Origin: Candidatus Nitrospira nitrosa
GTDB taxonomy: Bacteria; Nitrospirota; Nitrospiria; Nitrospirales; Nitrospiraceae
Direction: 5' to 3'
Assembly (NCBI RefSeq): GCF_001458735.1
Contig: NZ_CZQA01000010.1
Span: 124,001 to 188,000, forward strand
Length of the DNA stretch: 64,000 bases
In this document: positions 37,150-64,000 of the stretch, in pieces
Position numbering within the stretch: the stretch's first letter is position 1
Layout of the letters: each line of letters begins with the position of its first letter
Made by a program: the position numbers and the translations under genes
The notes under the pieces: generated by a model
Told to the model about the DNA's origin: nothing
Databases searched by the model: none
Seen by the model: only the letters and a program-made list of their open reading frames with translations

Positions 37150-37307
37150 GAGTGAGAACCTCCTCTTCTACCATCAGGCAAAGGGATTATTGCCAGCTTC
37201 GATGGACTAGTCTACCCACATCATGTAAATAAATCGTTAATAAAAGAATCTTGCGGCGACGAAGGCAGACCAGATACCATACTCCATCATCGAGAGCGGA
37301 GAGACTA

Positions 37308-38234
37308 TTGTCTGTGGCAACTGTTGCTCCTCAAAATGTTCGCCGCATCGGCTTGTTGCTGTGTATGGGGGTCTCCGGGTTACTCCTGGCACATGCCATC
37401 AATGCGTTTGTGGCCGATACCCTCTACGTTATTCCGGAACGGGCTGCGGGATCCGGGAATGGCCCCTCGGCAGGGACGCCGTTGATCGCGTCCTATTCGC
37501 CGACGCAGGCCATCGAGCATATTCGCTCCAGTGGTCTCTTTTTGCTTCCACAGACTCCTGAGAATGGATCGACCGGCGGCACCTCGTCTGGCCGACGAGG
37601 ATCCAGCGGTCCAGTAGTTCGAGCGTCCCTCGGGCTGGCTGGGAAGCTTCGCTTGATCGGCACGGTACTCGGTGATCAGCGTGGTGTCTTTGCCATCGTA
37701 GAAGAACTTTCCTCGAAACAGCAATCGTTGTACCACTTGCACGACTCCGTACTCGATCTCGGCGAAGTCACCGAGATCCGTCGGAAGGGAATTATCATCC
37801 GTCAAGGCAATGTCGAAGAGTTGTTGGAACTGGGGATCTCGGAAGGACTGGCCGCGCAGATGGGTACTCCTGGCGCTATTCCCGGTCCCCAGGCGACCGC
37901 CCCACCAATGTCGCCGCTTCGCAAAGTGGTGGATCGTCGTGAAGTGGAACAGGCCATGAATGACCTCCCGAAACTCCTCTCACAGGCACGAGCGGTACCG
38001 AATACGGTCAACGGCGCCATCAACGGGTTTCGTCTGGACTACATTGCACCCGCGAGCTTTTACGAAAAAATCGGGGTCCAGACTGGAGATGTGCTGCAGC
38101 GGGTCAATGGCGTCGATATTCGAGATCCAAGTACCATGTTGAATCTACTTCAGCAACTCAAAAACGAGCAGACCGTGAAACTCGACCTGGTCCGAAACAA
38201 CCAACGATCGACCATCACGTACGAACTTCGCTGA
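37308..38234 (+). CDS. gspC: Type II secretion system protein GspC
   Basis: This protein of about 308 residues is anchored in the inner membrane by one N-terminal helix (IGLLLCMGVSGLLLAHAINAFV). A periplasmic HR domain follows (KLRLIGTVLGDQRGVFAIVEE). A C-terminal PDZ-like domain ends the protein (GFRLDYIAPASFYEKIG, GDVLQRVNGVDIRDP). GspC links the inner-membrane platform to the secretin. A TTG at 37308 is chosen because GGAGAG lies at 37298-37303; the frame is also open from a TTG at 37251 with a poor ribosome site. It starts the T2SS cluster, divergent from gmd. No gspD follows: the next gene is gspE after 300 bases. Confidence 0.86.
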   Translation: MSVATVAPQNVRRIGLLLCMGVSGLLLAHAINAFVADTLYVIPERAAGSGNGPSAGTPLIASYSPTQAIEHIRSSGLFLLPQTPENGSTGGTSSGRRGSSGPVVRASLGLAGKLRLIGTVLGDQRGVFAIVEELSSKQQSLYHLHDSVLDLGEVTEIRRKGIIIRQGNVEELLELGISEGLAAQMGTPGAIPGPQATAPPMSPLRKVVDRREVEQAMNDLPKLLSQARAVPNTVNGAINGFRLDYIAPASFYEKIGVQTGDVLQRVNGVDIRDPSTMLNLLQQLKNEQTVKLDLVRNNQRSTITYELR

Positions 38235-38285
38235 TCCCACCGTTGGCAGTGGCACAATCTACGGAACGCAACAGCCGAAGATTTT

Positions 38286-38355
38286 CGAGTTTCTCACGTC
38301 AAGTTGCTGGTGCCTGCTCAATACCTGAGCTCCGAATCGTGAAACCTGAAACTCG
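38286..38355. repeat. Inverted-repeat element, GAAAC/GTTTC family, copy 1
   Basis: The left arm CGAGTTTCTCACG (38286-38298) and right arm CGTGAAACCTGAAACTCG (38338-38355) are complementary apart from a short gap, with a loop of about 40 bases. It fills much of the gspC-gspE gap. Related elements occur at 44867, 48073, 50639 and 52283. Confidence 0.6.
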
Positions 38356-38536
38356 ATGTGTCACGAAAGATCACTCTGAACGACAGGCACAAGGCCTCGA
38401 TTTTCCGTAACAATCTTTCCATGTTCTTGCCAGGTCGTCCTCAGGGAGAGTATCTTTACCCTTGGAAAGATAGTAAGACTCGATAGCGAACCCCCATCTC
38501 AAGTACGTGAGTTACGGGTAAGAGGTCAGAGAATAC

Positions 38537-40288
38537 GTGTCTGAACAAGACGAGCCCCAGCGACCCAATGTCAGTGTGACGCGGCCACGCCTGGGAGAGA
38601 TTCTCAGGGAAAAGTTTCACCTCTCGGAACTGAAGCTTGAGGAAGCGCTCGCCTACCAGCAGGAGAAGGGTGGTCGGTTGGGAGAAGTGCTGTTGCACCT
38701 GCGCATACTGCGGGAAGAACAGGTGCTGGAAGCCCTGGCCCAGCAATTCGACATGACCTGGATCCCCCACCTTGACAGCACACATGTCGATCATGAGGTC
38801 ATCAAGAAGGTTCCGATCGCCTTCTGCCGGCGCTACCGCGTTCTGCCGATGCGAGACGAAAACGGAGCCATTCTTACGGCATCGAGTGATCCGTTGGAAA
38901 CCGTCGCCATGGATGATCTTCGCTTGTTGTTGGGGAAACCGATCGCGCCGGTCTTGACCAGTACTGTCGCGCTCCTCGCGAGGCTCAATCGAGCCTACGA
39001 CGACATTGCGAATCCGGCAGGCGCCGAAGAAGTGATGGAGGATATCGCGGCGAACGAAAGCCTCGACCAGCTGGCGCACGAACTCGACGAGCCGCAAGAT
39101 CTGCTCGATGCGACCGACGAGGCCCCGATCATCCGACTCGTCAACTCGGTCCTATTCCAGGCGGTTCGGCAACGAGCCAGTGACATCCACTTCGAATCGT
39201 TCGAACGGGGGTTGGTGGTCCGCTATCGTATCGACGGCGTCCTCTACCCGGTCCTCACACCGCCCAAACACTTGCAAGCCAGCATCATCGCACGCCTCAA
39301 GATCATGGCCGGATTGAATATTGCCGAGAAACGGCTGCCGCAGGACGGTCGGTTCGCGATTCGAACGGCCGGAAAGGACGTCGATCTCCGCGTGTCTGTC
39401 CTCCCCACCTCGCATGGTGAGCGGGTTGTGTTGCGCTTACTGGAAAAGGAGAATCGTCTACTGAATCTCTCTGAGATGGGGTTTTCCAAAGACCGTCTGG
39501 TGGTCATTCACCAGCTCATCCAACTGGCACACGGGATCATACTCGTCACCGGCCCAACGGGAAGCGGGAAAACAACCACCCTCTATGCCGCACTGACCCA
39601 CATTAACTCGCCGGACAAGAACATCATCACCGTTGAGGATCCGGTCGAATACCAGCTGCTTGGCGTCGGGCAAATGCAGGTCAACCCGAAAATCAATCTC
39701 ACGTTTGCCGCCGGGCTACGGTCGATTCTTCGACAGGATCCTGATGTGATCATGATCGGGGAAATCCGCGACCGTGAAACGGCGGAGATCGCCATCCACG
39801 CGTCACTCACCGGACATTTGGTCTTCTCGACACTCCATACGAACGACGCCGCGAGCGCCGCCACACGGCTTATTGACATGGGGATTGAGCCCTTTCTGGT
39901 CGCCTCATCGGTCGTCGCCGTGCTGGCGCAACGGTTACTCAGACGGATTTGTCCCGACTGCAAGCGCCCCTATCGGGCCAGTGAAGACGAACTGGGTCGG
40001 CTGGACTTACCGCCTGGTTCCGCAGTGACACTGTATCGAGGAGCCGGCTGCGCCGCCTGTTCCCAAACCGGCTATCGCGGACGTATCGGCATCTTTGAAC
40101 TGATGGTATTGGACGATGACATTCGACGACTCATCGGCGGCAAGGCGGACTCGACTGCCATCAAACAGACAGCGATCGCAAAAGGCATGGTGACATTGAA
40201 GCAGGAAGGTGCGGAGCGAGTCATCCAGGGCCAGACCACATTGGAAGAAGTCATGCGGATCACCCAACAAGAGATCGACGTAGACTGA
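38537..40288 (+). CDS. gspE: Type II secretion ATPase GspE with MshEN c-di-GMP-binding domain
   Basis: This 583-residue cytoplasmic ATPase powers pseudopilus assembly. Residues 18-41 and 47-70 match the 24-residue MshEN motif (RLGxxL, then L, L and Q at motif positions 17, 21 and 24), separated by exactly five residues. The second copy has V for the first late L. The MshEN family binds c-di-GMP through this double motif. The rest is classical: Walker A GPTGSGKTTTLY (K345), Walker B DPDVIMIGEIRD (401-412), and a four-cysteine zinc site (CPDC at 472-475, CAAC at 505-508). The GTG start at 38537 follows AGAGG. The long linker at 150-200 is acidic. Confidence 0.93.
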   Translation: MSEQDEPQRPNVSVTRPRLGEILREKFHLSELKLEEALAYQQEKGGRLGEVLLHLRILREEQVLEALAQQFDMTWIPHLDSTHVDHEVIKKVPIAFCRRYRVLPMRDENGAILTASSDPLETVAMDDLRLLLGKPIAPVLTSTVALLARLNRAYDDIANPAGAEEVMEDIAANESLDQLAHELDEPQDLLDATDEAPIIRLVNSVLFQAVRQRASDIHFESFERGLVVRYRIDGVLYPVLTPPKHLQASIIARLKIMAGLNIAEKRLPQDGRFAIRTAGKDVDLRVSVLPTSHGERVVLRLLEKENRLLNLSEMGFSKDRLVVIHQLIQLAHGIILVTGPTGSGKTTTLYAALTHINSPDKNIITVEDPVEYQLLGVGQMQVNPKINLTFAAGLRSILRQDPDVIMIGEIRDRETAEIAIHASLTGHLVFSTLHTNDAASAATRLIDMGIEPFLVASSVVAVLAQRLLRRICPDCKRPYRASEDELGRLDLPPGSAVTLYRGAGCAACSQTGYRGRIGIFELMVLDDDIRRLIGGKADSTAIKQTAIAKGMVTLKQEGAERVIQGQTTLEEVMRITQQEIDVD

Positions 40289-40379
40289 TGCAATTCTATT
40301 TCTCCATCCCTCACCACGTCCGGTCCCACCAGCATCAGGCTGCATCGCCGGCTTGGGTCGTTCCTGAAATCGGTTGATC

Positions 40380-41618
40380 ATGCCCGTCTACCAATACCAG
40401 GGATACCGCAGTGACGGGGGAACAGCGACTGGAATCATCGACGCTGAAAACGTCAAAGTCGCGCGGTTGAAACTTCGCAAAGAGGGTGTCTACCCAACCG
40501 ATGTCGTAGAGCAGGGACAAACGTCCAGTCGAACAGCATCCACAACCCGCACCAAACCCTCACGGGTCATCGGACGAACATCGGTACTCACGGCCAACGA
40601 TCTATCCCTGCTCACTAGGCAGTTTGCCACGCTGCTCGTCGCTGGTTTACCGCTGGTCGATGCCCTTGGCGTACTCGTCGATCAGGCCGAAAAGAAACCG
40701 ATCAAGTCCCTGCTCGCCGACATCAGGGAGCAAGTCCGTGGGGGAAAAGCGTTGAGCGTCGTCTTGGAAACGTACGACAAGGATTTTTCCCCTATCTATG
40801 TCCATATGGTTCGAGCCGGTGAAGCGAGTGGGGCACTCGATCAGATTTTATTCAGACTGGCGGAGTTTCTTGAAAAACAGCAAGCCCTCCGAACCAAAGT
40901 GACCAATGCGATGCTCTACCCGGTGATCATGTTGGTCATCGGAACCGTCATCCTATTTTTCCTCATTACCTTCGTCGTTCCCAAGATCACGCAGGTCTTT
41001 GCCCAACAAAAACAGGCTTTGCCATGGCCGACCGTCGCCCTCATGTCGACCAGCCAGGTTTTCTCTGATTATTGGATGGTGTTGATCGGGCTGGTTCTCG
41101 CCGGCATCTATGGAATTCGACAATTTATCCGCACGGAACGAGGCCGCATGGTGGTGGACCGCCTGACATTGAAGCTCCCGTTGATCGGAGACGTCGCACG
41201 GATGGTCTCCATCTCCCGACTGACAAGCACGTTGTCCACAATGTTGGGAAGCGGTGTGCAGTTGCTCGATGCCTTGGATGTCTCCAAGCGGGTCATGAAC
41301 AATCGAGTGCTTGAGGAAACGGTTGAAAGCGCCAGGCAGAATATCCGCGAGGGTGAGACGATCGCTGATCCACTGAAGCGCAGCGGAGAATTCCCCGCTC
41401 TCGTCACGCACATGATCGCCGTCGGAGAAAAAAGCGGTGAGATGGAGGAGATGTTACGCCGGGTGAGCCACATCTATGACGGCGAAGTCGAACGGGTCAT
41501 TACACGGTTGACCTCACTGATGGAACCGATCATGATTCTCGTGATGGGCGTGATCGTATTTTTCATCGTCGTTGCGATACTATTACCCATCTTTGAGATG
41601 GGCCAAATGGTCCATTAA
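40380..41618 (+). CDS. gspF: Type II secretion platform protein GspF
   Basis: This 412-residue polytopic inner-membrane platform protein has two T2SSF domains. The N-terminus MPVYQYQGYRSDGG is family-typical. The first domain contains LLTRQFATLLVAGLPLVDAL and GEASGALDQILFRLAEFLE, with membrane helices near 170-195 and 220-240. The second contains RLTSTLSTMLGSGVQLLDAL and AVGEKSGEMEEMLRRVSHIYD, with a last helix near 385-405. It contacts GspE and GspL. An ATG at 40380 is used, although the frame opens with TTG at 40374. It follows gspE by 91 bases. Confidence 0.94.
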   Translation: MPVYQYQGYRSDGGTATGIIDAENVKVARLKLRKEGVYPTDVVEQGQTSSRTASTTRTKPSRVIGRTSVLTANDLSLLTRQFATLLVAGLPLVDALGVLVDQAEKKPIKSLLADIREQVRGGKALSVVLETYDKDFSPIYVHMVRAGEASGALDQILFRLAEFLEKQQALRTKVTNAMLYPVIMLVIGTVILFFLITFVVPKITQVFAQQKQALPWPTVALMSTSQVFSDYWMVLIGLVLAGIYGIRQFIRTERGRMVVDRLTLKLPLIGDVARMVSISRLTSTLSTMLGSGVQLLDALDVSKRVMNNRVLEETVESARQNIREGETIADPLKRSGEFPALVTHMIAVGEKSGEMEEMLRRVSHIYDGEVERVITRLTSLMEPIMILVMGVIVFFIVVAILLPIFEMGQMVH

Positions 41619-41676
41619 GAAAACAAACTCACATATGCGCACTGACAACTGTGAACGAGCTAAAGGGGGACTGACC

Positions 41677-42213
41677 ATGACAGATTCCGACACTCAGGGC
41701 CCACACCGCACTCAAATTCTGGAACAGCGCGCACACCATTGTGGGGCTCTCAACCTGTTCCTTCGAACGACGGCAAACTCAGCCGGTTTTACCTTCATTG
41801 AAATTATGGTTGTCGTGGCCATTTTGGCCATCCTTGCGGCGCTGGTCGTCCCGCGCATCATGGGCCGAACCGATGATGCCAAGCGCACAGCGGCTAAAGT
41901 ACAGATTCGCAATCTCGAGGGGGCGCTCCAGCTCTATAAACTGGATAATGGCATCTATCCCACCACGGAACAGGGCCTCAAGGCGTTGGTTGAAAAGCCG
42001 TCGGTTGGAGTGATCCCCAAGAAATGGAAGATCGGCGGATACCTCCCCAAGCTGCCAGAAGATCCATGGGGCAATCCCTACAAGTATCTCAGCCCGGTGC
42101 AACGGGCGGATCAGAAACTTGATTACGAAGTGACCTCACTCGGCACCGATGGTGAAGTCGGGGGTGAGGGCATCAACGCCGACATCACGAATTGGAATCT
42201 CGACAAAGAGTAA
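41677..42213 (+). CDS. gspG: Major pseudopilin GspG
   Basis: This 178-residue precursor of the major T2SS pseudopilin has the prepilin peptidase site SAG/FTFIEIMVVVAILAILAA with Glu at +5. The C-terminal GspG domain has LYKLDNGIYPTTEQGLKALV, DPWGNPYKYLSP and YEVTSLGTDGEVGGEG, including the calcium-binding end. The ATG at 41677 has GGGGGA 7 bases upstream. This gives a leader of 37 residues, much longer than the usual 6-12; an even longer frame opens upstream. No prepilin peptidase gene is in the window, so the leader must be cut by an enzyme encoded elsewhere. Confidence 0.94.
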   Translation: MTDSDTQGPHRTQILEQRAHHCGALNLFLRTTANSAGFTFIEIMVVVAILAILAALVVPRIMGRTDDAKRTAAKVQIRNLEGALQLYKLDNGIYPTTEQGLKALVEKPSVGVIPKKWKIGGYLPKLPEDPWGNPYKYLSPVQRADQKLDYEVTSLGTDGEVGGEGINADITNWNLDKE

Positions 42214-42221
42214 AGACATCA

Positions 42222-42932
42222 ATGGTGATTCATCATTGGCTCGGCATCAGGCTATCAGCGATCAGCCATCGGTCATCAGCTCTTCAGGAGCAATCCTCCG
42301 CCTCCTACCCCTCACCCTTCACCCTTCACGACCTACGCTCATCGTCGGGCTTCACCCTCCTGGAAATGCTGATCGCCTTGTTTTTGCTGGGTGGAGTCCT
42401 AGCCGTGATCTTGCCTCGCATCACCTTTGAGGAAGACTTGCGCTCTACCGGGAGGAAACTGGTCGGACTGCTGCGAACCTTCCAAGGCCAAGCGGCCATC
42501 GATCAAACACCGCTCAGGCTCTACCTGGACCTGGACCAGGGACTCTACTGGATGATGGTGGTGGAAGGAAAAGAAGAACGGCTTCCTCTGGATCCTGCAT
42601 GGAAATTACCGCGACCGCTTCCGGAATCCATTCGCTTGACTGAGGTCTCCATCGGACAAGACAAACGTATGTCGGGACGAGTGGGAGTGACATTCTTCCC
42701 CAATGGACGGATCGAGCCGGTGACGATATATCTCATGGACGACAAAAGTCATCTCTTGGGGGTAGCGGTCGATTCCTTGACCGGGGCCATTCGGGTCAGT
42801 GACGAACGGTTCGATCTACCGCTAAACCGCCTGACCCCTGACCGTGTGAAGATCCTCCTAAAAGCCAGCACCCAAGCAGACGCCGGTGGAGCGGCACGAG
42901 GAGGCCCCCCACCCCCCCGCGGGGTGCAATGA
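42222..42932 (+). CDS. gspH: Minor pseudopilin GspH
   Basis: This is a precursor of about 237 residues. The prepilin cleavage site is SSG/FTLLEMLIALFLLGGVLA, with Glu at +5, preceded by a leader of some 46 residues. The body is beta-rich (LRLYLDLDQGLYWMMV, GRVGVTFFPNGRIEPVTIYL), as expected for GspH. The leader is encoded by simple ATCAGC and CACCCTT repeats, unlike the rest of the gene. No start codon closer to the cleavage site is available (ATG, GTG or TTG). The C-terminus is Gly/Pro-rich (GGPPPPRGVQ) and is encoded by C6 and C7 runs. The stop overlaps the gspI start. Confidence 0.82.
   Translation: MVIHHWLGIRLSAISHRSSALQEQSSASYPSPFTLHDLRSSSGFTLLEMLIALFLLGGVLAVILPRITFEEDLRSTGRKLVGLLRTFQGQAAIDQTPLRLYLDLDQGLYWMMVVEGKEERLPLDPAWKLPRPLPESIRLTEVSIGQDKRMSGRVGVTFFPNGRIEPVTIYLMDDKSHLLGVAVDSLTGAIRVSDERFDLPLNRLTPDRVKILLKASTQADAGGAARGGPPPPRGVQ
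42245..42330. repeat. Simple-sequence repeats within the gspH leader
   Basis: Four imperfect ATCAGC-type units at 42245-42280 are followed by CACCCTT-type units at 42309-42330. These look like noncoding repeat DNA that is now read as the GspH prepilin leader. Confidence 0.5.
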
Positions 42933-43366
42933 TTTCTGTGACAAACTACCCCATGGCCGGTGAGCGTGGATTCACGCTCCTTGAAGTCCTCCTGGCCATT
43001 GCGGTACTGGCCATCGCGCTACCCGTCCTTCTTGGTCTGAGAAACTTTGACCTCGATCTCCAAAGCCGGGCGACCGAGCTCACCGCCGCAACCCTGTTGG
43101 CACAGGAGAAACTTCTTGAGGTTGAACTCGCTGGTCAGTATGCCGTTGGAGAAACCCTGGGAGAGTTCTCGCCTCTCCCGCTGGGATCTCAGACCGCGCT
43201 TCAAGCGGTTCCACGAGCAGTGGGCTATCGATGGAAGCGCACCATTGTACCGACTCCGCTCGATTTTGTTCGAGAAGTTCGCATCAAAATATCGTGGCCG
43301 CGCGGTGAGCGAGAAGAATCGTTGGAGGTCAGCACCTATGTGCTCGCAACCCGCCTCCCCTCGTAA
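42929..43366 (+). CDS. gspI: Minor pseudopilin GspI
   Basis: This is a 145-residue minor pseudopilin precursor. The cleavage site is ERG/FTLLEVLLAIAVLAIALPV with Glu at +5. The mature body is short and contains LAQEKLLEVELAG and a C-terminal beta region ending VSTYVLATRLPS. GspI forms the tip complex with GspJ and GspK. The ATG overlaps the gspH stop. A second ATG at 42953 would give a six-residue leader (MAGERG), closer to the family norm. Confidence 0.88.
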   Translation: MISVTNYPMAGERGFTLLEVLLAIAVLAIALPVLLGLRNFDLDLQSRATELTAATLLAQEKLLEVELAGQYAVGETLGEFSPLPLGSQTALQAVPRAVGYRWKRTIVPTPLDFVREVRIKISWPRGEREESLEVSTYVLATRLPS

Positions 43367-43973
43367 GGCAACCAGGCAACAAGGATTCACCCTCGTTGAA
43401 GTCCTGGTCGCCGTGACGCTGCTCGGCACCATCGCGGCCATGGTCTTCGCGTCACTCTTGACGACGACACAGACCGTAGAGGCAGGGAGAGAACACACGA
43501 CCCGAGAACAAACCGTCAGGAAGATTCTCCGCTTGATGGCGGAAGAGATTGCACTCAGCAAGCGGTCGATCGCGTACCCGTGGGTTGGGATGAACGGGAC
43601 ACAAGACGGCCAGCCCGCCGATACCCTGGCGATCCTCGCCATGAGCCAGGAGCTACTTACCGTGACCACCACGGCCAAGGAAAGCGACGCCGTTCGAGTC
43701 GTGTATACGCGCGAACGCGATCGATTGATTCGGTTCGTTCGAAAAAACCTCTATACCTTGACGGATACCAACGAATCGCTTGATCAAATGGAATTAGCCG
43801 ACCGAGTTCACGCGTTCAATATCCGCTATTACGATGAGCAGAACCGTGTCTGGCTCGACGAATGGCCAAACGCCAGCAAGTTGCCTAAAGCCGTGTTACT
43901 TGAAATAACATTTCAGTATCCCGATGCCGCACCGTGGACGGTGCGGGAATGGGTCACCATTGGAACATCATGA
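43338..43973 (+). CDS. gspJ: Minor pseudopilin GspJ
   Basis: This is a precursor of about 211 residues with cleavage site QQG/FTLVEVLVAVTLLGTIAAM and Glu at +5. The body has KILRLMAEEIALSKR, DAVRVVYTRERDRLIRFV and a late VLLEITFQYPD, matching GspJ, which binds GspI and GspK in the tip. The ATG at 43338 has GGAGG 9 bases upstream and lies within the end of gspI (29-base overlap, another frame). The stop overlaps the next gene's ATG. Confidence 0.88.
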   Translation: MCSQPASPRKATRQQGFTLVEVLVAVTLLGTIAAMVFASLLTTTQTVEAGREHTTREQTVRKILRLMAEEIALSKRSIAYPWVGMNGTQDGQPADTLAILAMSQELLTVTTTAKESDAVRVVYTRERDRLIRFVRKNLYTLTDTNESLDQMELADRVHAFNIRYYDEQNRVWLDEWPNASKLPKAVLLEITFQYPDAAPWTVREWVTIGTS

Positions 43974-44854
43974 CCATCAAATGGCCTGACGCCTGGAAAG
44001 AAATTCTGTCATGGACCATCGGCGGGATCAGCATCCTTGCCCTCTGCCTGATTGCCACCTTCCCCTATAGTGCGCTCCAGAACCGTGTCGTGGCAGAACT
44101 GAAACGAGCCACCGGCCTGGACATCCGCATTGCGGATTGGACGATCGGACTGCCGCTCAGCCTGGAATGGCGGAATGTGAGTCTCTCAAAACCGAACCTC
44201 GATCCGGTTGAGCTGACCAGCCTGCAGGCCCGGCTCGGTGTCTTCGAGGCACTTCGAGGCACCCTCGGCCTCGACGTTCTTGTCCAACTGAGCGAACCGA
44301 CTCCTCGCACAAACTTCGTCAAGGGGACGCTCACCGCAGCGACGTTCTCCATGGCCGGCCCGCTGACACTCAAGGGACAACTCCAACAGGTCGATTTACC
44401 GAAACTCATCCGTCGATACGTCACCCGGGGGACTCTCAACGGAGAATTTTCTCATCGAGTGGCTTCCGATCCCTCTTCCCCCAACGTCCTGAGGAGCGAG
44501 GGAACCTGGACCGCAGAGGCCACGGACTTGGAGATCGACCAGATTCCGCTTGGCAATGGCAAAATCTTGTCGCTGACATTCAGCAGGGCCGCAGCCGGGC
44601 TTTCCTGTAGAAACCTCGTCTGCGATGTCACGCAATTGAAGGGTGAGGGGTTGGATGGATCGTTTGAAGGCCAAGGACAGATTACTCTGCAAAACCAGAT
44701 CCCAAATAGTCAACTGGCGCTGACGGTGACGCTGATCCCTGGTCCTGGGTTTGCCTCAAAGGCGGCAACCCTCGGCCTCCCATCGTTTCCTCCTGGAACT
44801 CCCATCACCGTCAAGATCATAGGAACCTTGGCACAGGCACGGATCGCGTTGTAA
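43970..44854 (+). CDS. gspN: Type II secretion protein GspN
   Basis: This 294-residue bitopic protein has one N-terminal membrane helix (ILSWTIGGISILALCLIATF) and a long beta-rich periplasmic part with AsmA-like repeats (LPLSLEWRNVSLSKPN, LTLKGQLQQVDLPKLI, LDGSFEGQGQITL). This agrees with the GspN family of deltaproteobacteria and Leptospira rather than the short enterobacterial type. The ATG at 43970 overlaps the gspJ stop (ATGA). Its role in T2SS is not well defined; it may assist secretin or lipid interactions. It precedes gspL after a 114-base gap that holds a repeat element. Confidence 0.75.
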   Translation: MTIKWPDAWKEILSWTIGGISILALCLIATFPYSALQNRVVAELKRATGLDIRIADWTIGLPLSLEWRNVSLSKPNLDPVELTSLQARLGVFEALRGTLGLDVLVQLSEPTPRTNFVKGTLTAATFSMAGPLTLKGQLQQVDLPKLIRRYVTRGTLNGEFSHRVASDPSSPNVLRSEGTWTAEATDLEIDQIPLGNGKILSLTFSRAAAGLSCRNLVCDVTQLKGEGLDGSFEGQGQITLQNQIPNSQLALTVTLIPGPGFASKAATLGLPSFPPGTPITVKIIGTLAQARIAL

Positions 44855-44968: not shown

Positions 44969-46558
44969 ATGGCGATTGTCAATGAATGTGTCGGGTTGGA
45001 TATCGGACAAACGGGGTTGAAGGCCGTCCGGTTCCGTCGCCGACTAAGCGGACGCGAAACCGTCGATTACTTTCAACATTCCTTGCCGTTTTCCCGCCCG
45101 GAGGATCTGGAGCCGGCTCGGCGCGTCCAATCCCTTCGAGGCTTCCTCTGGCGCCACGGACTCTACGCCACCGATCGATTGGTCACGGCGATCCCCTGTC
45201 AAGACCTCTTTGTTCGTACCCTCTCCTTCCCCTTCAACGATGCAGCCAAACTGGCGCAAGTCGTTCCGTTTGAAGTTGAGAACCTCGTCCCAATGGCGCT
45301 TGAGGACCTGGCGGTCGACAGCCTCGTCTTGCCTCCCGGCCAGTCTCTCGAAGGACCTCCTCGCGACAGCAAAGGCTCCGAGGTGCTGGTCACGGCGGCA
45401 CCCAGGGACAAAGTCGCCGAGCACCTCCGATTCCTGGCCCAGGCCGATATCGAACCCTCCGCGATCAACGTCGATGCCATGGCGCTGTTTTCCGTGACGC
45501 AATACCTTCAAGGAGAAGGAGCAACCGTTCCGCAAGACTTGGCGATCATCGATATCGGTGCCTCCAAAACCACGCTCTGCCTGGTAGAAGGTGGACGCCC
45601 GGTCATGCTCCGAACGATTCTGTGGGGCGGCAACCACCTCACACATGCGTTGGCCGCCCAACATGCCTACAGCTTCGCCGATGCCGAACGCCACAAACGA
45701 ACCATCGCGGTGGACCAGGTGAGCGGCTTGCTGGAGCCGATCGTGAAGGAGCTTCGTATTACCTTGCAGGCCTACCAAGGGAACGAGCGGAGTCGGTTAA
45801 CCCACTGCTGGATTTGCGGAGGCGGATCAAAGATGGTGGAGATCGGCGGACACCTCTCTCGACAATTAGGACTCTACGCAGTCGGGCCACGACAGGGGTT
45901 TGGAGCCGACACCCCAAGAGCATTTTCCATTGCATTCGGATTGGCCATTCACCCCAAGATTGTTCGCCCACGGTGGCGATTCAAGTCCTCCCCCTTGGGG
46001 CTCGCGCTCGACCTCAAAAGCGTGTCCGACGCCGCATCACCGGATGTGGCCACCATGAAGCAAAATCGCCGCTTGGCGATCATTGCAGGGCTAGTCATCG
46101 CCGTGCTGGCGCTCCTGGACTTCTCGGTTCACTACTTTCTGCAAGACCAGCGTGTCACACGATTGAGAGCCGCGCTCCTCAGTCAGTACGAGCAAGTCTT
46201 TGGGACCGGGACGGGCGCCTCGCCCGGGGAGGAAGTCGATCAAGCAAAATACCGCATCGGCGTCCTCGATAAGGCCCTCGGGTTGGTCGATGCCACGGAT
46301 GGAAAAGTCCTCTTCACTCTCTCGACGTTCGTGAAACAACTTCCACCTGGTACGATGATCAAGGTACGCGAGCTGACCGTGGATGGGGCGGTCATCCTCA
46401 TGGAGGGAGAAACCTCCTCATTCGATGCGGTGGAGCGAATCAAGCAAGCGTTTGCAGCAAGCCCACGCTTAGCGGAGGTCTCCGTCACGGAAACCCGCGT
46501 GGGCGCCTCACCCAATCAAGTCGTTTTTCGCATATCCGTCACGGTGGAGAAGCCATGA
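44969..46558 (+). CDS. gspL: GspL with full PilM-like actin fold
   Basis: This 529-residue bitopic inner-membrane protein has a large cytoplasmic domain (residues 1-345) of the actin-like PilM/GspL type: VGLDIGQTGLKAVRF, VVPFEVENLVPM, LAIIDIGASKTTLCLVE, WICGGGSKMV. A membrane helix follows near residues 371-392 (LAIIAGLVIAVLALLDFSV). The periplasmic part resembles PilN/GspL (LPPGTMIKVRELTVDG, FDAVERIKQAF). It binds GspE and GspM. The phosphate-binding and hinge motifs of the actin fold look intact, as in PilM, whereas classical GspL has lost many of them. ATG start at 44969; the stop overlaps gspM. Confidence 0.88.
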   Translation: MAIVNECVGLDIGQTGLKAVRFRRRLSGRETVDYFQHSLPFSRPEDLEPARRVQSLRGFLWRHGLYATDRLVTAIPCQDLFVRTLSFPFNDAAKLAQVVPFEVENLVPMALEDLAVDSLVLPPGQSLEGPPRDSKGSEVLVTAAPRDKVAEHLRFLAQADIEPSAINVDAMALFSVTQYLQGEGATVPQDLAIIDIGASKTTLCLVEGGRPVMLRTILWGGNHLTHALAAQHAYSFADAERHKRTIAVDQVSGLLEPIVKELRITLQAYQGNERSRLTHCWICGGGSKMVEIGGHLSRQLGLYAVGPRQGFGADTPRAFSIAFGLAIHPKIVRPRWRFKSSPLGLALDLKSVSDAASPDVATMKQNRRLAIIAGLVIAVLALLDFSVHYFLQDQRVTRLRAALLSQYEQVFGTGTGASPGEEVDQAKYRIGVLDKALGLVDATDGKVLFTLSTFVKQLPPGTMIKVRELTVDGAVILMEGETSSFDAVERIKQAFAASPRLAEVSVTETRVGASPNQVVFRISVTVEKP

Positions 46559-47103
46559 TACAGGGCTTCAAAGAACGCTGGCATCACATGTCTCGGCGAG
46601 AGCGGACGCTCCTGCTCGCAGGTGGGATCGTGCTTGGACTCAGTGTGTTGTTCGTCCTGATTGTCGACCCACTGTTGGACAATCTGGAGCGCCTGGAGCG
46701 CCAAGCCACGCGCAAACAGAAGGATCTTGCCGAATTGGCTCAACTCGGCCAATCCTATCTCGCGAAGCGAGATCGCTTGAGCATGATCGAGAGCCGCATG
46801 CCTCAACCTGAGAGCCATTTCTCGCTCCTCACCTTCATCGAAGAGGCGGCGACGACGGCACAGGTACGAGAACAGATTACCGGCATGCAGCCGCATGTCC
46901 AGTCCTTAGCGCAGGGCTACCAAGAGACCGCGGTCGATCTCCGATTGGAAGGCGTCCAACTCCCAGAGTTATTGGCGTTACTGGCTGCGATCAATCAGGC
47001 TCCCTATGACCTACACGTTCGCCATCTGCAGATCCGTCCAAAATTCGACAACCCCGTCAATCTCGATGCCACCGTTCGAGTCTTGAGTTATGCCAAGAGC
47101 TGA
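46555..47103 (+). CDS. gspM: Type II secretion protein GspM
   Basis: This is a 182-residue bitopic protein. A short cytoplasmic tail with RERTLLLAGG is followed by a membrane helix (IVLGLSVLFVLIVDPLL), a coiled coil (residues 42-75) and a ferredoxin-like periplasmic domain (VDLRLEGVQLPELLALLAAI, YDLHVRHLQIRPK). The layout fits GspM/PilO, partner of GspL. It starts within the gspL stop (ATGA) and its end overlaps the gspK start by 14 bases, so the three are translated together. Confidence 0.86.
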   Translation: MIQGFKERWHHMSRRERTLLLAGGIVLGLSVLFVLIVDPLLDNLERLERQATRKQKDLAELAQLGQSYLAKRDRLSMIESRMPQPESHFSLLTFIEEAATTAQVREQITGMQPHVQSLAQGYQETAVDLRLEGVQLPELLALLAAINQAPYDLHVRHLQIRPKFDNPVNLDATVRVLSYAKS

Positions 47104-48034
47104 TGATCGCGGTATCGCATTACTGCTTGCGCTCCTGGTCCTGACCCTCCTCACCGCCCTCATACTCGAATTCGACGCAGAGGCCAGACGAGAATACCGA
47201 GCAGCCGCCACCTTTCGCGACGACTATAAAGCCACCATGCTGACCCGGGCCGCCGTCCAGGCCACAAAAGCCGTGCTGCTCCAAGATCTGTTGCGGGAAA
47301 AGATGACCGGCCAGAAATACGACGGTCCGACCGATATCTGGGCTATGCCGATCAAGCAGTTGCCGATCGGCGACGGGTTCCTCACCGCTCAGATCCGGGA
47401 CGAGACGGGGAAAGTGAACCTAAACGATCTTGCCTCGACCTCAGGAGGTGAGCTGGAGCAAAAGAAGAAGGTGGCCCGGGTCAAACGACTCTTTGAGTTG
47501 CTGAGAATCAGCCCCAATCTGGTTGATGCGCTCATCGATTGGGTGGACCAGGACGAAGCCCCTCAGCCGGCCGGCGCCGAGAGCCTCTACTATCAATCTT
47601 TGAGACCACCCTACCGCGCCGCCAACAGTCCCCTCCCGGGCTTGGGGGATTTGAGGCTCATCAAGGGATTTACGCCGGAGGTCATCGAGCGGATCACGCC
47701 CTACATCACCGTCTTTCCCATGGAGGGCAGTGCCGCCATGAATGTCAACACGGCCGATCCGATCGTGCTTCAGACCTTAGACCCGGCCGTCACTCAATCC
47801 GTAGCGATGGAGATCGTGCAGGGGCGACCGTTCAAGACCAAAGTGGAACTCGACCGGGTCAGCAGCTTTCAAGAAATCGGCCGGACACTGCGAAACGATT
47901 ACGACATTAAGTCTGATTATTTTTCGGCACGTCTGGCTATCACCGTCAATGAAACCACCAAGAGCTCGCTGGTCATTTTGAAACGAGATGCCGGCAAGGG
48001 AGATAGTACGGTGGAATACTTGCGGATTCTCTAG
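47090..48034 (+). CDS. gspK: Minor pseudopilin GspK
   Basis: This is a 314-residue large tip pseudopilin. The prepilin site is DRG/IALLLALLVLTLLTALILE, without Glu at +5. That is normal for GspK, the first subunit of the tip. The mature protein has the GspK alpha-helical insertion (VNLNDLAS, LFELLRISPNLVDALIDWVDQDE, LRLIKGFTPEVIERITPYI) and NVNTADPIVLQTL, a helix-hairpin-helix-like element. It is the last T2SS gene. Its position after gspM, instead of next to gspJ as in Vibrio or Escherichia, is unusual. Confidence 0.9.
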   Translation: MPRADDRGIALLLALLVLTLLTALILEFDAEARREYRAAATFRDDYKATMLTRAAVQATKAVLLQDLLREKMTGQKYDGPTDIWAMPIKQLPIGDGFLTAQIRDETGKVNLNDLASTSGGELEQKKKVARVKRLFELLRISPNLVDALIDWVDQDEAPQPAGAESLYYQSLRPPYRAANSPLPGLGDLRLIKGFTPEVIERITPYITVFPMEGSAAMNVNTADPIVLQTLDPAVTQSVAMEIVQGRPFKTKVELDRVSSFQEIGRTLRNDYDIKSDYFSARLAITVNETTKSSLVILKRDAGKGDSTVEYLRIL

Positions 48035-61717: not shown

Positions 61718-61774
61718 CGGCCGCCGGAACAGGGTGAGCATCTCACCGGGAAAAGCCTCACGGCCGTTATTTTT
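61718..61774. terminator. Convergent terminator structure
   Basis: A six-base perfect stem GGTGAG-CAT-CTCACC (61733-61747) is nested in an outer pair of CGGCCG arms (61718-61723 and 61761-61766). On the plus strand the outer arm is followed by TTATTTTT, which overlaps the stop codon of the convergent HD-GYP gene. It fits a terminator for the hybrid-kinase operon. Confidence 0.5.
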
Positions 61775-63050
61775 CCGTCATTAAATACCCGTTGAGTTGC
61801 GTCGGCAACAAGGCATTCTTGACCCGTTCAGGCAGGGTCTTGGGATCTAAGCTTTTCTCGATCGAGATCGATCGTTCCCTCGCCAAATCAATGATCGCCG
61901 CTTGATCGTGCGAGGCATTCCGTTCATACAGCATGATGACCGGGCGCAAACGCTCCTGGCTATTGGTCTTGATCACCAACCCGAAGCTCCCATCGCTCAA
62001 TTCCACAAATGAGCCGGGCGGAAAGACGGTGACGGTCGCGATGAACGGATCGATGACGTCCGGACCATACTTATTCCGCAGTTTCGTATACAGATACGTC
62101 AAGGCTTGGCTTGGACTGAGGTAGCGCGCAGACCGCCGATCACTGACCCTCAGATTGTACTCAACGATCGTCCCGACCAATCGTGCCGTCTTGGTGATAT
62201 CCCCGTTGATGAGCTTCTTAGGATATCCGGTGCCGTCGAGATATTCCCGGTGTTGGTGGACAATCTCAATGATCTCGGGAGCCACATCAGGCATGCCTTC
62301 CAAGATCTCCTTCCCCAGTTGAGGATACATCCGAAGTAATTTAGCCTCGGTCGGCGAGAGGTCCTCCTCGCTCTTCAGGCGGACCGCCAACGGAACTCGA
62401 TTCATCCCGATGTTGTGAAAGAGTCCACCTATCCCGACGTGCTCGGTTTCTTCAGGGCTGAGACCGAGCGTCTTGGCCGTGAGTTTGGCAAGCGCACTCA
62501 CATTCAGCGCATGCATGGCCAACTCCTGGCCTGGTTCCGCCCGACTCTCTGCACAGACGAGACTCAGCAAGACAGGCTCCTGTGCCGTAACCTTGCCCAT
62601 CGTCTCCAAGATCTTGGTCGCCGCCTGCATGGTGCTCGGCTGTCCGGCATTGGCCATCGCCATGACGACCGACACATCATTGGTCGCCTTGGCATAGGTG
62701 CGCGAGTTGTCTTCGATGGCTTTGCGATGCTCCAGCGCCGTCTGAAGCTGCCGTTGTTTTTCCTTGAGGATCGACTGCTCGTCCTCCTCGGCATCCTTCT
62801 CGGTTTCGGCATCGATTTCAAAGGCACGGACGGGAACCGACGGCTTGGTCAGGGACTCGACGACATCAGCATGAGAGAGTTGGGGGTCATAAAACAGCTT
62901 GGTGAGGCGATGTTTCCGAATAATCGCGATTTCCGTCGGTGAGGAGACCGTAAAAACATTGCGGACGAAGGGATGTTCCATCCACGAATGGTCGATCTTG
63001 ATATAGAGCCCGACTCGTAGCAGCGTTGGATCAAGCGGGAGCCACGCCAT
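61767..63050 (-). CDS. HD-GYP-type protein with DUF3391 and altered metal-binding residues
   Basis: This 427-residue cytoplasmic protein has a DUF3391-like N-terminal domain (residues 1-90, LLRVGLYIKIDHSWMEHPF). An acidic coiled region lies at about 85-110 and an HD-GYP-type domain at 170-400. The metal-binding HD dyad reads H212-N213 (LFHNIGMNRVP), and the usual HHE reads HRE (267-269), followed by a normal DGTGYP. HD-GYP proteins hydrolyse c-di-GMP using two or three metal ions bound by those residues. Loss of the dyad aspartate suggests weak or no activity, perhaps a sensor role. GGAGGAG lies before the ATG. A close paralogue is encoded just upstream at the window edge. Confidence 0.85.
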   Translation of the reverse strand: MAWLPLDPTLLRVGLYIKIDHSWMEHPFVRNVFTVSSPTEIAIIRKHRLTKLFYDPQLSHADVVESLTKPSVPVRAFEIDAETEKDAEEDEQSILKEKQRQLQTALEHRKAIEDNSRTYAKATNDVSVVMAMANAGQPSTMQAATKILETMGKVTAQEPVLLSLVCAESRAEPGQELAMHALNVSALAKLTAKTLGLSPEETEHVGIGGLFHNIGMNRVPLAVRLKSEEDLSPTEAKLLRMYPQLGKEILEGMPDVAPEIIEIVHQHREYLDGTGYPKKLINGDITKTARLVGTIVEYNLRVSDRRSARYLSPSQALTYLYTKLRNKYGPDVIDPFIATVTVFPPGSFVELSDGSFGLVIKTNSQERLRPVIMLYERNASHDQAAIIDLARERSISIEKSLDPKTLPERVKNALLPTQLNGYLMTEK

Positions 63051-63296: not shown

Positions 63297-64000
63297 TTAT
63301 CCATTGCCCCCTTCCGGTTTTTTCTGAGTAGTAGTTAACACGTATCCATTGAGCTTTGTGGGGAGCAAGGCGTTTTTCACTCGCTCAGGCAACGTTTTAG
63401 TATCTATACTTCTTTCTATTGAGAGTGATCGTTCCCGTGCCAGATCGATGATGGCGGCTTGCTCATGCGACGCCTGCCGCTCGTACAGCATGACGATGGG
63501 GCGCAGCCGCTCATCCAGATTGCATTTAAGGACCAACCCGAAGCTCCCATCGCTCAGCTCGACAAACGAACCAGGAGGAAACACGGTGACGGTTGCGATA
63601 AAGGCGTCGATAACATCCGGACCATACTTATGCTGCATTTTTGCATAGAGATGCGACAATGCCTGCCCGGGTCCAAGATATCGAGGTGAACGGCGGTCGC
63701 TCGTCATGGCGTTGTATTCTACAATCACCCCAACCAAACGAGCCAGTTTGTTGATATCCCCGGCAAATAATCGCTTGGGGTATCCAGTCCCATCGATCCA
63801 TTCTCGATGCTGGTGGACAATCTCAACAACCTCAGCATCCATACCTGGAATGACTTCTAGGATTTCCTTGCCAAGCTGAGGATACATCCGGAGAAGCTTC
63901 GTCTCCGTCGGAGACATATCCTCTTCGCTTTTGACACGGACGGCTAAGGGAACGCGACTCATGCCGATATTATGAAGTAACGCACCCATCCCCACTCGCT
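63297..64000 (-). CDS. Partial HD-GYP-type protein, tandem paralogue
   Basis: Only the C-terminal 234 or so residues are in the window; the frame runs open off the right edge (RVGMGALLHNIGM). It is highly similar to the neighbouring HD-GYP protein over its whole visible length (for example IATVTVFPPGSFVELSDGS in both). It has the same substitutions: HN for HD, HRE for HHE, then DGTGYP. A short charged tail (TTTQKKPEGGNG) differs from the neighbour. Tandem duplication before divergence is the simplest explanation. The N-terminal domain cannot be seen. Confidence 0.85.
   Translation of the reverse strand, partial: RVGMGALLHNIGMSRVPLAVRVKSEEDMSPTETKLLRMYPQLGKEILEVIPGMDAEVVEIVHQHREWIDGTGYPKRLFAGDINKLARLVGVIVEYNAMTSDRRSPRYLGPGQALSHLYAKMQHKYGPDVIDAFIATVTVFPPGSFVELSDGSFGLVLKCNLDERLRPIVMLYERQASHEQAAIIDLARERSLSIERSIDTKTLPERVKNALLPTKLNGYVLTTTQKKPEGGNG

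Follow-up and report, generated by a model that had tools for sequence, protein, structure and literature searches.

The gsp gene cluster and identification of GspE

The window analyzed in this study is the whole 64,000-nt stretch C10:124001-188000 of the Candidatus Nitrospira nitrosa genome, which is 4.4 Mb in size and assembled in 15 contigs. A gsp gene cluster in the window contains, in this order, gspC, gspE, gspF, gspG, three prepilin-like ORFs, a gspN-like ORF, gspL, gspM, and gspK (Table 1). The ORF at 38537-40288 encodes a genuine T2SS ATPase, GspE. It scored 700.5 bits with the model TIGR02533, over the equivalog cut-off of 630.25, and 604 with the PilB model TIGR02538, below the cut-off of 675 for that model. 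The nearest named GspE, that of Nitrospira sp. UW-LDO-01, was 99% identical. In addition, the products of gspF and gspG scored over their NCBIfam cut-offs and those of gspM and gspK over their Pfam cut-offs, which identifies gspE as a member of a gsp cluster. The GspE call, coordinates and reading frame of a first-pass annotation of this DNA were borne out. The labels for gspH, gspI, gspJ, and gspN as well as some ORF starts rest on our reading of the sequence and the gene order. A search of the whole window against Rfam, the 300-nt gspC-gspE gap included, gave no c-di-GMP riboswitch match above threshold.

Table 1. Features of the gsp cluster and of the separate gspD-pilZ pair. Positions are those of the window unless a contig (C) or locus (L) is given; residues are those of GspE.
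Feature	Position	Strand	Basis
gspC-like (PDZ); true start perhaps further in	37251..38234	+	NF041515 GspC 146.7 bits, just below cut-off 150
300-nt gspC-gspE gap	38235..38536	+	place of gspD in family f4 (same order); no RNA family match
gspE, T2SS ATPase, 583 aa, GTG start	38537..40288	+	TIGR02533; PF00437 residues 192-574
R16-P17; R16 equivalent to MshE R7, P17 just before motif 1	38582..38587	+	alignment to 5HTL
MshEN motif copy 1, residues 18-41 (RLGEILREKFHLSELKLEEALAYQ)	38588..38659	+	NF053729; contacts R18 L19 G20 L34 L38 Q41
Five-residue linker, residues 42-46	38660..38674	+	sequence
MshEN motif copy 2, residues 47-70 (RLGEVLLHLRILREEQVLEALAQQ)	38675..38746	+	NF053729; contacts R47 L48 G49 V63 L67 Q70
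MshEN C-terminal subdomain (PF05157), with D118 equivalent to MshE D108	38759..39004	+	PF05157 residues 79-156; alignment to 5HTL; model
T2SSE ATPase domain	39110..40258	+	PF00437 residues 192-574
gspF	40374..41618	+	TIGR02120 457.6 bits, cut-off 424
gspG, major pseudopilin; start uncertain	41572..42213	+	TIGR01710 168 bits, cut-off 88.85
Three prepilin-like ORFs, probably gspH, gspI, gspJ; starts uncertain	42192..43973	+	GFTLLE/GFTLVE prepilin motifs in translations
gspN-like candidate	43934..44854	+	weak AsmA match, 21.8 bits, below cut-off 29.8
gspL (PilM-like cytoplasmic part), gspM, gspK	44969..48034	+	PF11104, PF04612, PF21687/PF03934
gspD orthologue	C8:704746-706488 (L117:747-2492)		TIGR02517 341 bits, just under cut-off 351
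PilZ gene, 117 aa, downstream of gspD	L117:2799-3152 (gspD-pilZ pair C8:704746-707148)	same as gspD	

The tandem MshEN motif of GspE

The two MshEN motif copies of GspE lie at residues 18-41 and 47-70 and are separated by five residues, exactly as previously annotated. Residues 18-70 matched the 53-residue NCBI model NF053729 ("cyclic di-GMP-binding domain, MshE-related") end to end over model positions 1-53 (50.1 bits, E 1.7e-13, cut-off 38), and by this match above the cut-off the tandem motif is not a chance resemblance. The HMM comparison that had been proposed for the N-terminal region was thus positive with NF053729, whereas the Pfam family that bears the name MshEN (PF05157) covered residues 79-156 only. 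Given that this match is confined to the C-terminal subdomain and misses residues 18-70, a Pfam match by itself would leave the motif untested, and PF05157 was dropped as a test of binding.

The full MshEN motif, RLGxx(L/V/I)(L/V/I)xxG(L/V/I)(L/V/I)xxxxLxxxLxxQ, has 11 defined positions per copy, of which R, L, G, L, L, and Q touch the ligand and the others make up the core of the bundle and its turns (PMC5013675). Although the reduced pattern used in the first-pass annotation was correct in that only V63 differs from it, the full double motif was matched at 17 of 22 positions, not in its strict form. Copy 1 departs from it at R24 (position 7), F27 (turn glycine, position 10), and H28 (position 11), and copy 2 at R56 (turn glycine) and V63 (for leucine). 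The replaced turn glycines and the polar residues at core hydrophobic positions of copy 1 are points against binding. Except for V63, which is a conservative change, all of these departures are outside the ligand contacts. Known binders also deviate from the strict motif, such as PilF GSPII-B, which differs at position 1 and has a shorter motif 2; a match at all 22 positions is therefore not needed for membership. In the alignment to MshE (5HTL), the contacts were identical at 6 of 6 positions in copy 1 and 5 of 6 in copy 2 (11/12 overall), with V63 in place of L54, and the equivalents of R7 and D108 of MshE were also present, as R16 and D118. The contact set (R/K/L)1, L2, G3, L17, L21, and Q24 was found in both copies, with V at one L17.

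The residue just before motif position 1 is P17, which aligns with L166 of PilF. Without ligand, helix 1 of PilF GSPII-B extends by one more turn and obstructs the pocket, and the L166G change shortens helix 1 and lowers the KD from 6 to 3 nM (PMC11731258). A stabilized long helix 1 also adds to the non-binding of PilF GSPII-A (PMC12002112). In the AlphaFold2 model, helix 1 of GspE begins at residue 19. Because P17 occupies the place of L166, where glycine shortens helix 1, we infer that P17 should hold helix 1 of GspE in a short, binding-competent form. It would thereby keep the pocket open without the unfolding step known from PilF.

Structure model of the N-terminal domain

The AlphaFold2 model of the N-terminal domain was built from 59 aligned domains and had a mean pLDDT of 92.3 and a pTM of 0.84. 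It consists of a four-helix N-subdomain and an alpha/beta C-subdomain, the fold of the c-di-GMP-bound MshEN structures (Z 17-18). The best matches in the fold search (VIA) were c-di-GMP-bound structures of PilF GSPII-B (Z 17.4-17.9, rmsd 2.0-2.2), and c-di-GMP-bound MshE was also close (Z 17.2, rmsd 2.5). The non-binders XpsE (Z 14.1, 3.8 A) and PilF GSPII-A (Z 10.8, 5.1 A) fit less well. Structural modeling, which had been suggested as a check of the pocket, thus gave a confident model that is nearer to bound MshE and PilF than to the non-binders; this fit is support, not proof, since the bound structures were probably in the AlphaFold2 training data and a lean to bound conformations is possible. 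The N-domain of X. citri PilB in its complex with PilZ was another strong match (Z 15.8). Moreover, model residues 75-143 matched the EpsL-docking N-domain of EpsE (2bh1). Matches to fumarase and ribosome structures were set aside as short helical or partial-domain likeness.

Conservation among Nitrospira GspE homologs

All 12 contact positions were binding-compatible in 40 of 40 Nitrospira GspE loci, which comprise 37 distinct sequences with identities of 69-100%. The same compatibility was found in just 10 of 52 more distant homologs with an alignable N-domain. The fold thus outlasts the site in distant homologs, which makes the retention of the site in Nitrospira informative. Among the 37 deduplicated sequences, residue class was kept in 10 of 10 tested contact columns vs 15 of 41 other columns of residues 18-70 (Fisher p 2.6e-4), a comparison in which helix Leu, Gly, and Gln positions are often conserved regardless and the sequences, being from one genus, represent one lineage and are non-independent. 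Synonymous codons varied freely in the contact columns.

Motif position 1 was only R or L in Nitrospira, with RR in the two copies in the lineage of the window and LR or LL elsewhere, and with few changes on the tree. The KD of PilF GSPII-B was 6 nM for the wild type, 2 nM for K167L, and 150 nM for K167R (PMC11731258). As both R and L bind in PilF, the R/L pattern of Nitrospira fits the extended (R/K/L) consensus. Residue 16 was R or K in all but one of the Nitrospira rows that reach this position. P17 was invariant in all Nitrospira rows that cover it, and other homologs were mixed at this position.

c-di-GMP enzymes and other MshEN proteins in the genome

Cyclases and phosphodiesterases are encoded intact elsewhere in the genome, with four GGDEF-family domains with GG[DE]EF and two EAL domains with ExLxR. 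In addition, it contains 14 HD_5 matches, several of which have intact HD and HHE, and 26 PilZ matches. The proximity of HD-GYP-like proteins had been taken in the first-pass annotation as a tie between secretion and c-di-GMP, an argument that did not hold. The two HD-GYP-like ORFs of the window (61767-63050 and 63297-63998, both on the minus strand) are ~22 kb from gspE and lack the catalytic HD/HHExxDGxGYP signature, with HN for HD, YP for HP, and HRE for HHE. Their products are probably inactive because the catalytic residues are lost, and distance and lost residues together rule them out as partner enzymes. They lend no support to a local circuit. As paralogues, they may have a structural role or bind a signal. 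A third HD_5 match is located just outside the window at C10:190376.

A motif profile found six places in the genome, of which only GspE and a CheA-like protein kept both motifs. The CheA-like kinase (L125:1336-3513; C10, minus strand) has two MshEN motifs with a one-residue linker instead of five, and it might link chemotaxis signaling to c-di-GMP. Contig C11 contains a further pilus/T2SS-like cluster (L116:1923-12323) with a secretin with TPR repeats, a LysM protein, PilN/PilO-like genes, and a motor whose MshEN is degenerate. This motor (L116:7249-8976) scored 31.1 with NF053729, below the cut-off of 38, and kept 7 of 12 contacts, by which it was ruled out as a second c-di-GMP receptor.

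A relocated gspD and its PilZ neighbor

No gspD was found between gspC and gspE, and the gspD homolog of family f4 is directly upstream of gspE. This gene order suggests that gspD has moved out of the gsp cluster in Nitrospira, and an orthologue is present on contig C8 (Table 1). Another secretin gene at C8:420525 was rejected as gspD, as it follows PilO/PilP-like genes and encodes PilQ (TIGR02515 385 bits, over cut-off). The pairing of gspD with the downstream pilZ was found in 29 of 30 Nitrospira loci, and the thirtieth locus is truncated at a contig end. In these PilZ proteins, R9, R13, S37, and G40 were invariant and position 35 was D or N, so that RxxxR/[DN]xSxxG, the canonical PilZ signature for c-di-GMP, is intact; the PilZ motif is also named in PMC5013675. 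In two f4 genomes, Ser replaces Gly at position 3 in each of the two MshEN copies of GspE (L033:1504-1962, L034:1507-1965), so that both copies are changed alike, and no relative of the gspD-adjacent PilZ was detected in the four f4 genomes; this correlation amounts to one evolutionary contrast.

Judged from its motif, the gspD-adjacent PilZ is a possible second c-di-GMP input. We raise, as a rather unlikely reading and one far more doubtful than binding by GspE itself, that the Nitrospira T2SS has two such inputs, the proline-pre-opened MshEN of GspE and the PilZ by the relocated gspD, which would gate the motor and the pore, possibly via docking of PilZ on MshEN.

Predicted c-di-GMP binding by GspE and its proposed consequences

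Several lines of evidence make it likely that the MshEN domain of GspE binds c-di-GMP: the match to a dedicated model, the retained contacts, their conservation and the fit to known structures. As a whole, the observations are probably best explained, in our view with good confidence, by an MshEN pocket that binds one c-di-GMP and may thereby alter the coupling of GspE to GspL.

A role for PilZ offers an alternative, in which c-di-GMP would be bound mainly through cross-talk with the gspD-adjacent PilZ, docked on MshEN as in the X. citri PilZ-PilB complex. The conserved gspD-pilZ pair with its intact PilZ motifs and the strong match of the model to the PilB N-domain of that complex agree with such docking. 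However, pilZ adjoins gspD rather than gspE, and the gap of ~130-310 nt permits separate promoters. Moreover, PilZ of X. citri is a non-canonical PilZ. We therefore regard this alternative as unlikely.

Slightly less likely still is a reading in which the domain persists solely for structure and GspL docking and, like that of XpsE, no longer binds c-di-GMP. Most canonical GspE proteins assayed (V. cholerae GspE, XcpR, and HxcR) fail to bind (PMC4624772). The family f4 relatives retain the domain despite their Gly to Ser changes in both copies, and F27 and R56 at the turns and R24 and H28 at core positions of Nitrospira GspE point in the same direction. Against this loss, the positions that XpsE lost (R38, G11, G40, L29, L54, L58, and Q61; PMC5013675) are kept or conservatively changed in Nitrospira GspE. 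These positions are also constrained beyond the neighboring columns, and the model is nearest to bound structures. Finally, it is very improbable that another cyclic dinucleotide such as 3',3'-cGAMP, which MshEN binds weakly (KD 3.3e-4 M; PMC5013675), is the main ligand, as the guanine-reading features are all kept in both copies and the genome encodes GGDEF cyclases as well as EAL and HD-GYP phosphodiesterases.

If GspE binds c-di-GMP as the preferred explanation has it, each 24-residue copy would clasp one guanine of a single c-di-GMP molecule. R18 and R47 would stack on one face of the guanines, and leucine clusters would pack on the opposite face, L19 with V63/L67 and L48 with L34/L38. The Hoogsteen edge would be read by the backbone amides of G20 and G49, and the ribose-phosphate would be held by Q41 and Q70, with extra contacts from R16 in the flank and D118 in the C-terminal subdomain. 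The ligand may then clamp the N-subdomain onto the C-subdomain, the equivalent of the EpsL-docking region of EpsE, and the clamped GspE may engage GspL differently and change the powering of pseudopilus assembly. This proposed effect on GspE-GspL coupling is based on the match of model residues 75-143 to the EpsL-docking domain of EpsE. A point against an effect on secretion is that c-di-GMP barely altered the ATPase activity of MshE in vitro (PMC5013675). If Nitrospira GspE behaves like MshE and PA14_29490, the effect of c-di-GMP on the secretion machine would be to promote it. Of the earlier proposal of c-di-GMP-controlled secretion, the predicted c-di-GMP-binding MshEN on a T2SS ATPase is thus well supported, while control of secretion is suggested only by analogy with these two systems.

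Comparison with known systems

In an incomplete literature collection, searched by title and abstract, none of the few papers that name both Nitrospira and c-di-GMP appeared to link the signal to the T2SS, and no earlier description of the gspD-pilZ pair or of the proline and R/L pattern was found in this partial search. The predicted site offers a testable tie between the biofilm signal c-di-GMP and the export of proteins by nitrifiers, whose activity shapes how nitrogen is removed in soil and wastewater. The T2SS motor on C10 with the site and its paralogue on C11 without it form a clean paired control in one genome. Moreover, nature already supplies variants with which to probe what sets MshEN affinity, in the R/L switching at motif position 1 and in the invariant proline.

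The fold of the modeled domain is that of MshE (VC0405, 5HTL; Z 17.2), and the contacts are the same, including the equivalents of R7, R9, Q32, R38, Q61, and D108. MshE, however, is the motor of the MSHA pilus and has turn glycines and a hydrophobic core where GspE has F27, R56, R24, and H28, as well as L54 where GspE has V63. PilF GSPII-B of Thermus thermophilus (8PDK) belongs to the best structural match group (Z 17-18) and tolerates R, K, or L at position 1, and its L166G variant mimics the helix shortening that is expected of P17. PilF, however, drives type IV pili and carries three of these domains, and GSPII-B has a second motif that is shorter by one residue. In Xanthomonas campestris, XpsE/GspE (2D27/2D28) is likewise a T2SS ATPase whose N-terminal region consists of these two subdomains, but it has lost the contact residues and the binding (PMC5013675) and fits less well (Z 14.1, rmsd 3.8). 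An MshEN domain has also been predicted on the T2SS-cluster GspE LIC_11571 of Leptospira interrogans (PMC12943098), which is a prediction only and from an unrelated lineage.

Occurrence of MshEN in gsp operons has been noted before (PMC5013675), and among the T2SSE ATPases, MshE and the T2SS ATPase PA14_29490 are established binders of c-di-GMP (PMC4624772). By its published description, PA14_29490 (HxrA) of Pseudomonas aeruginosa resembles Nitrospira GspE in being a T2SS ATPase whose N-terminal T2SSE_N/MshEN binds c-di-GMP (PMC4624772). It differs in that it is from another lineage and in that the Nitrospira gsp cluster is without gspD. Given that c-di-GMP-binding T2SS ATPases such as PA14_29490 are known, the predicted c-di-GMP site of Nitrospira GspE is an added example of an already known type of receptor rather than a new type.
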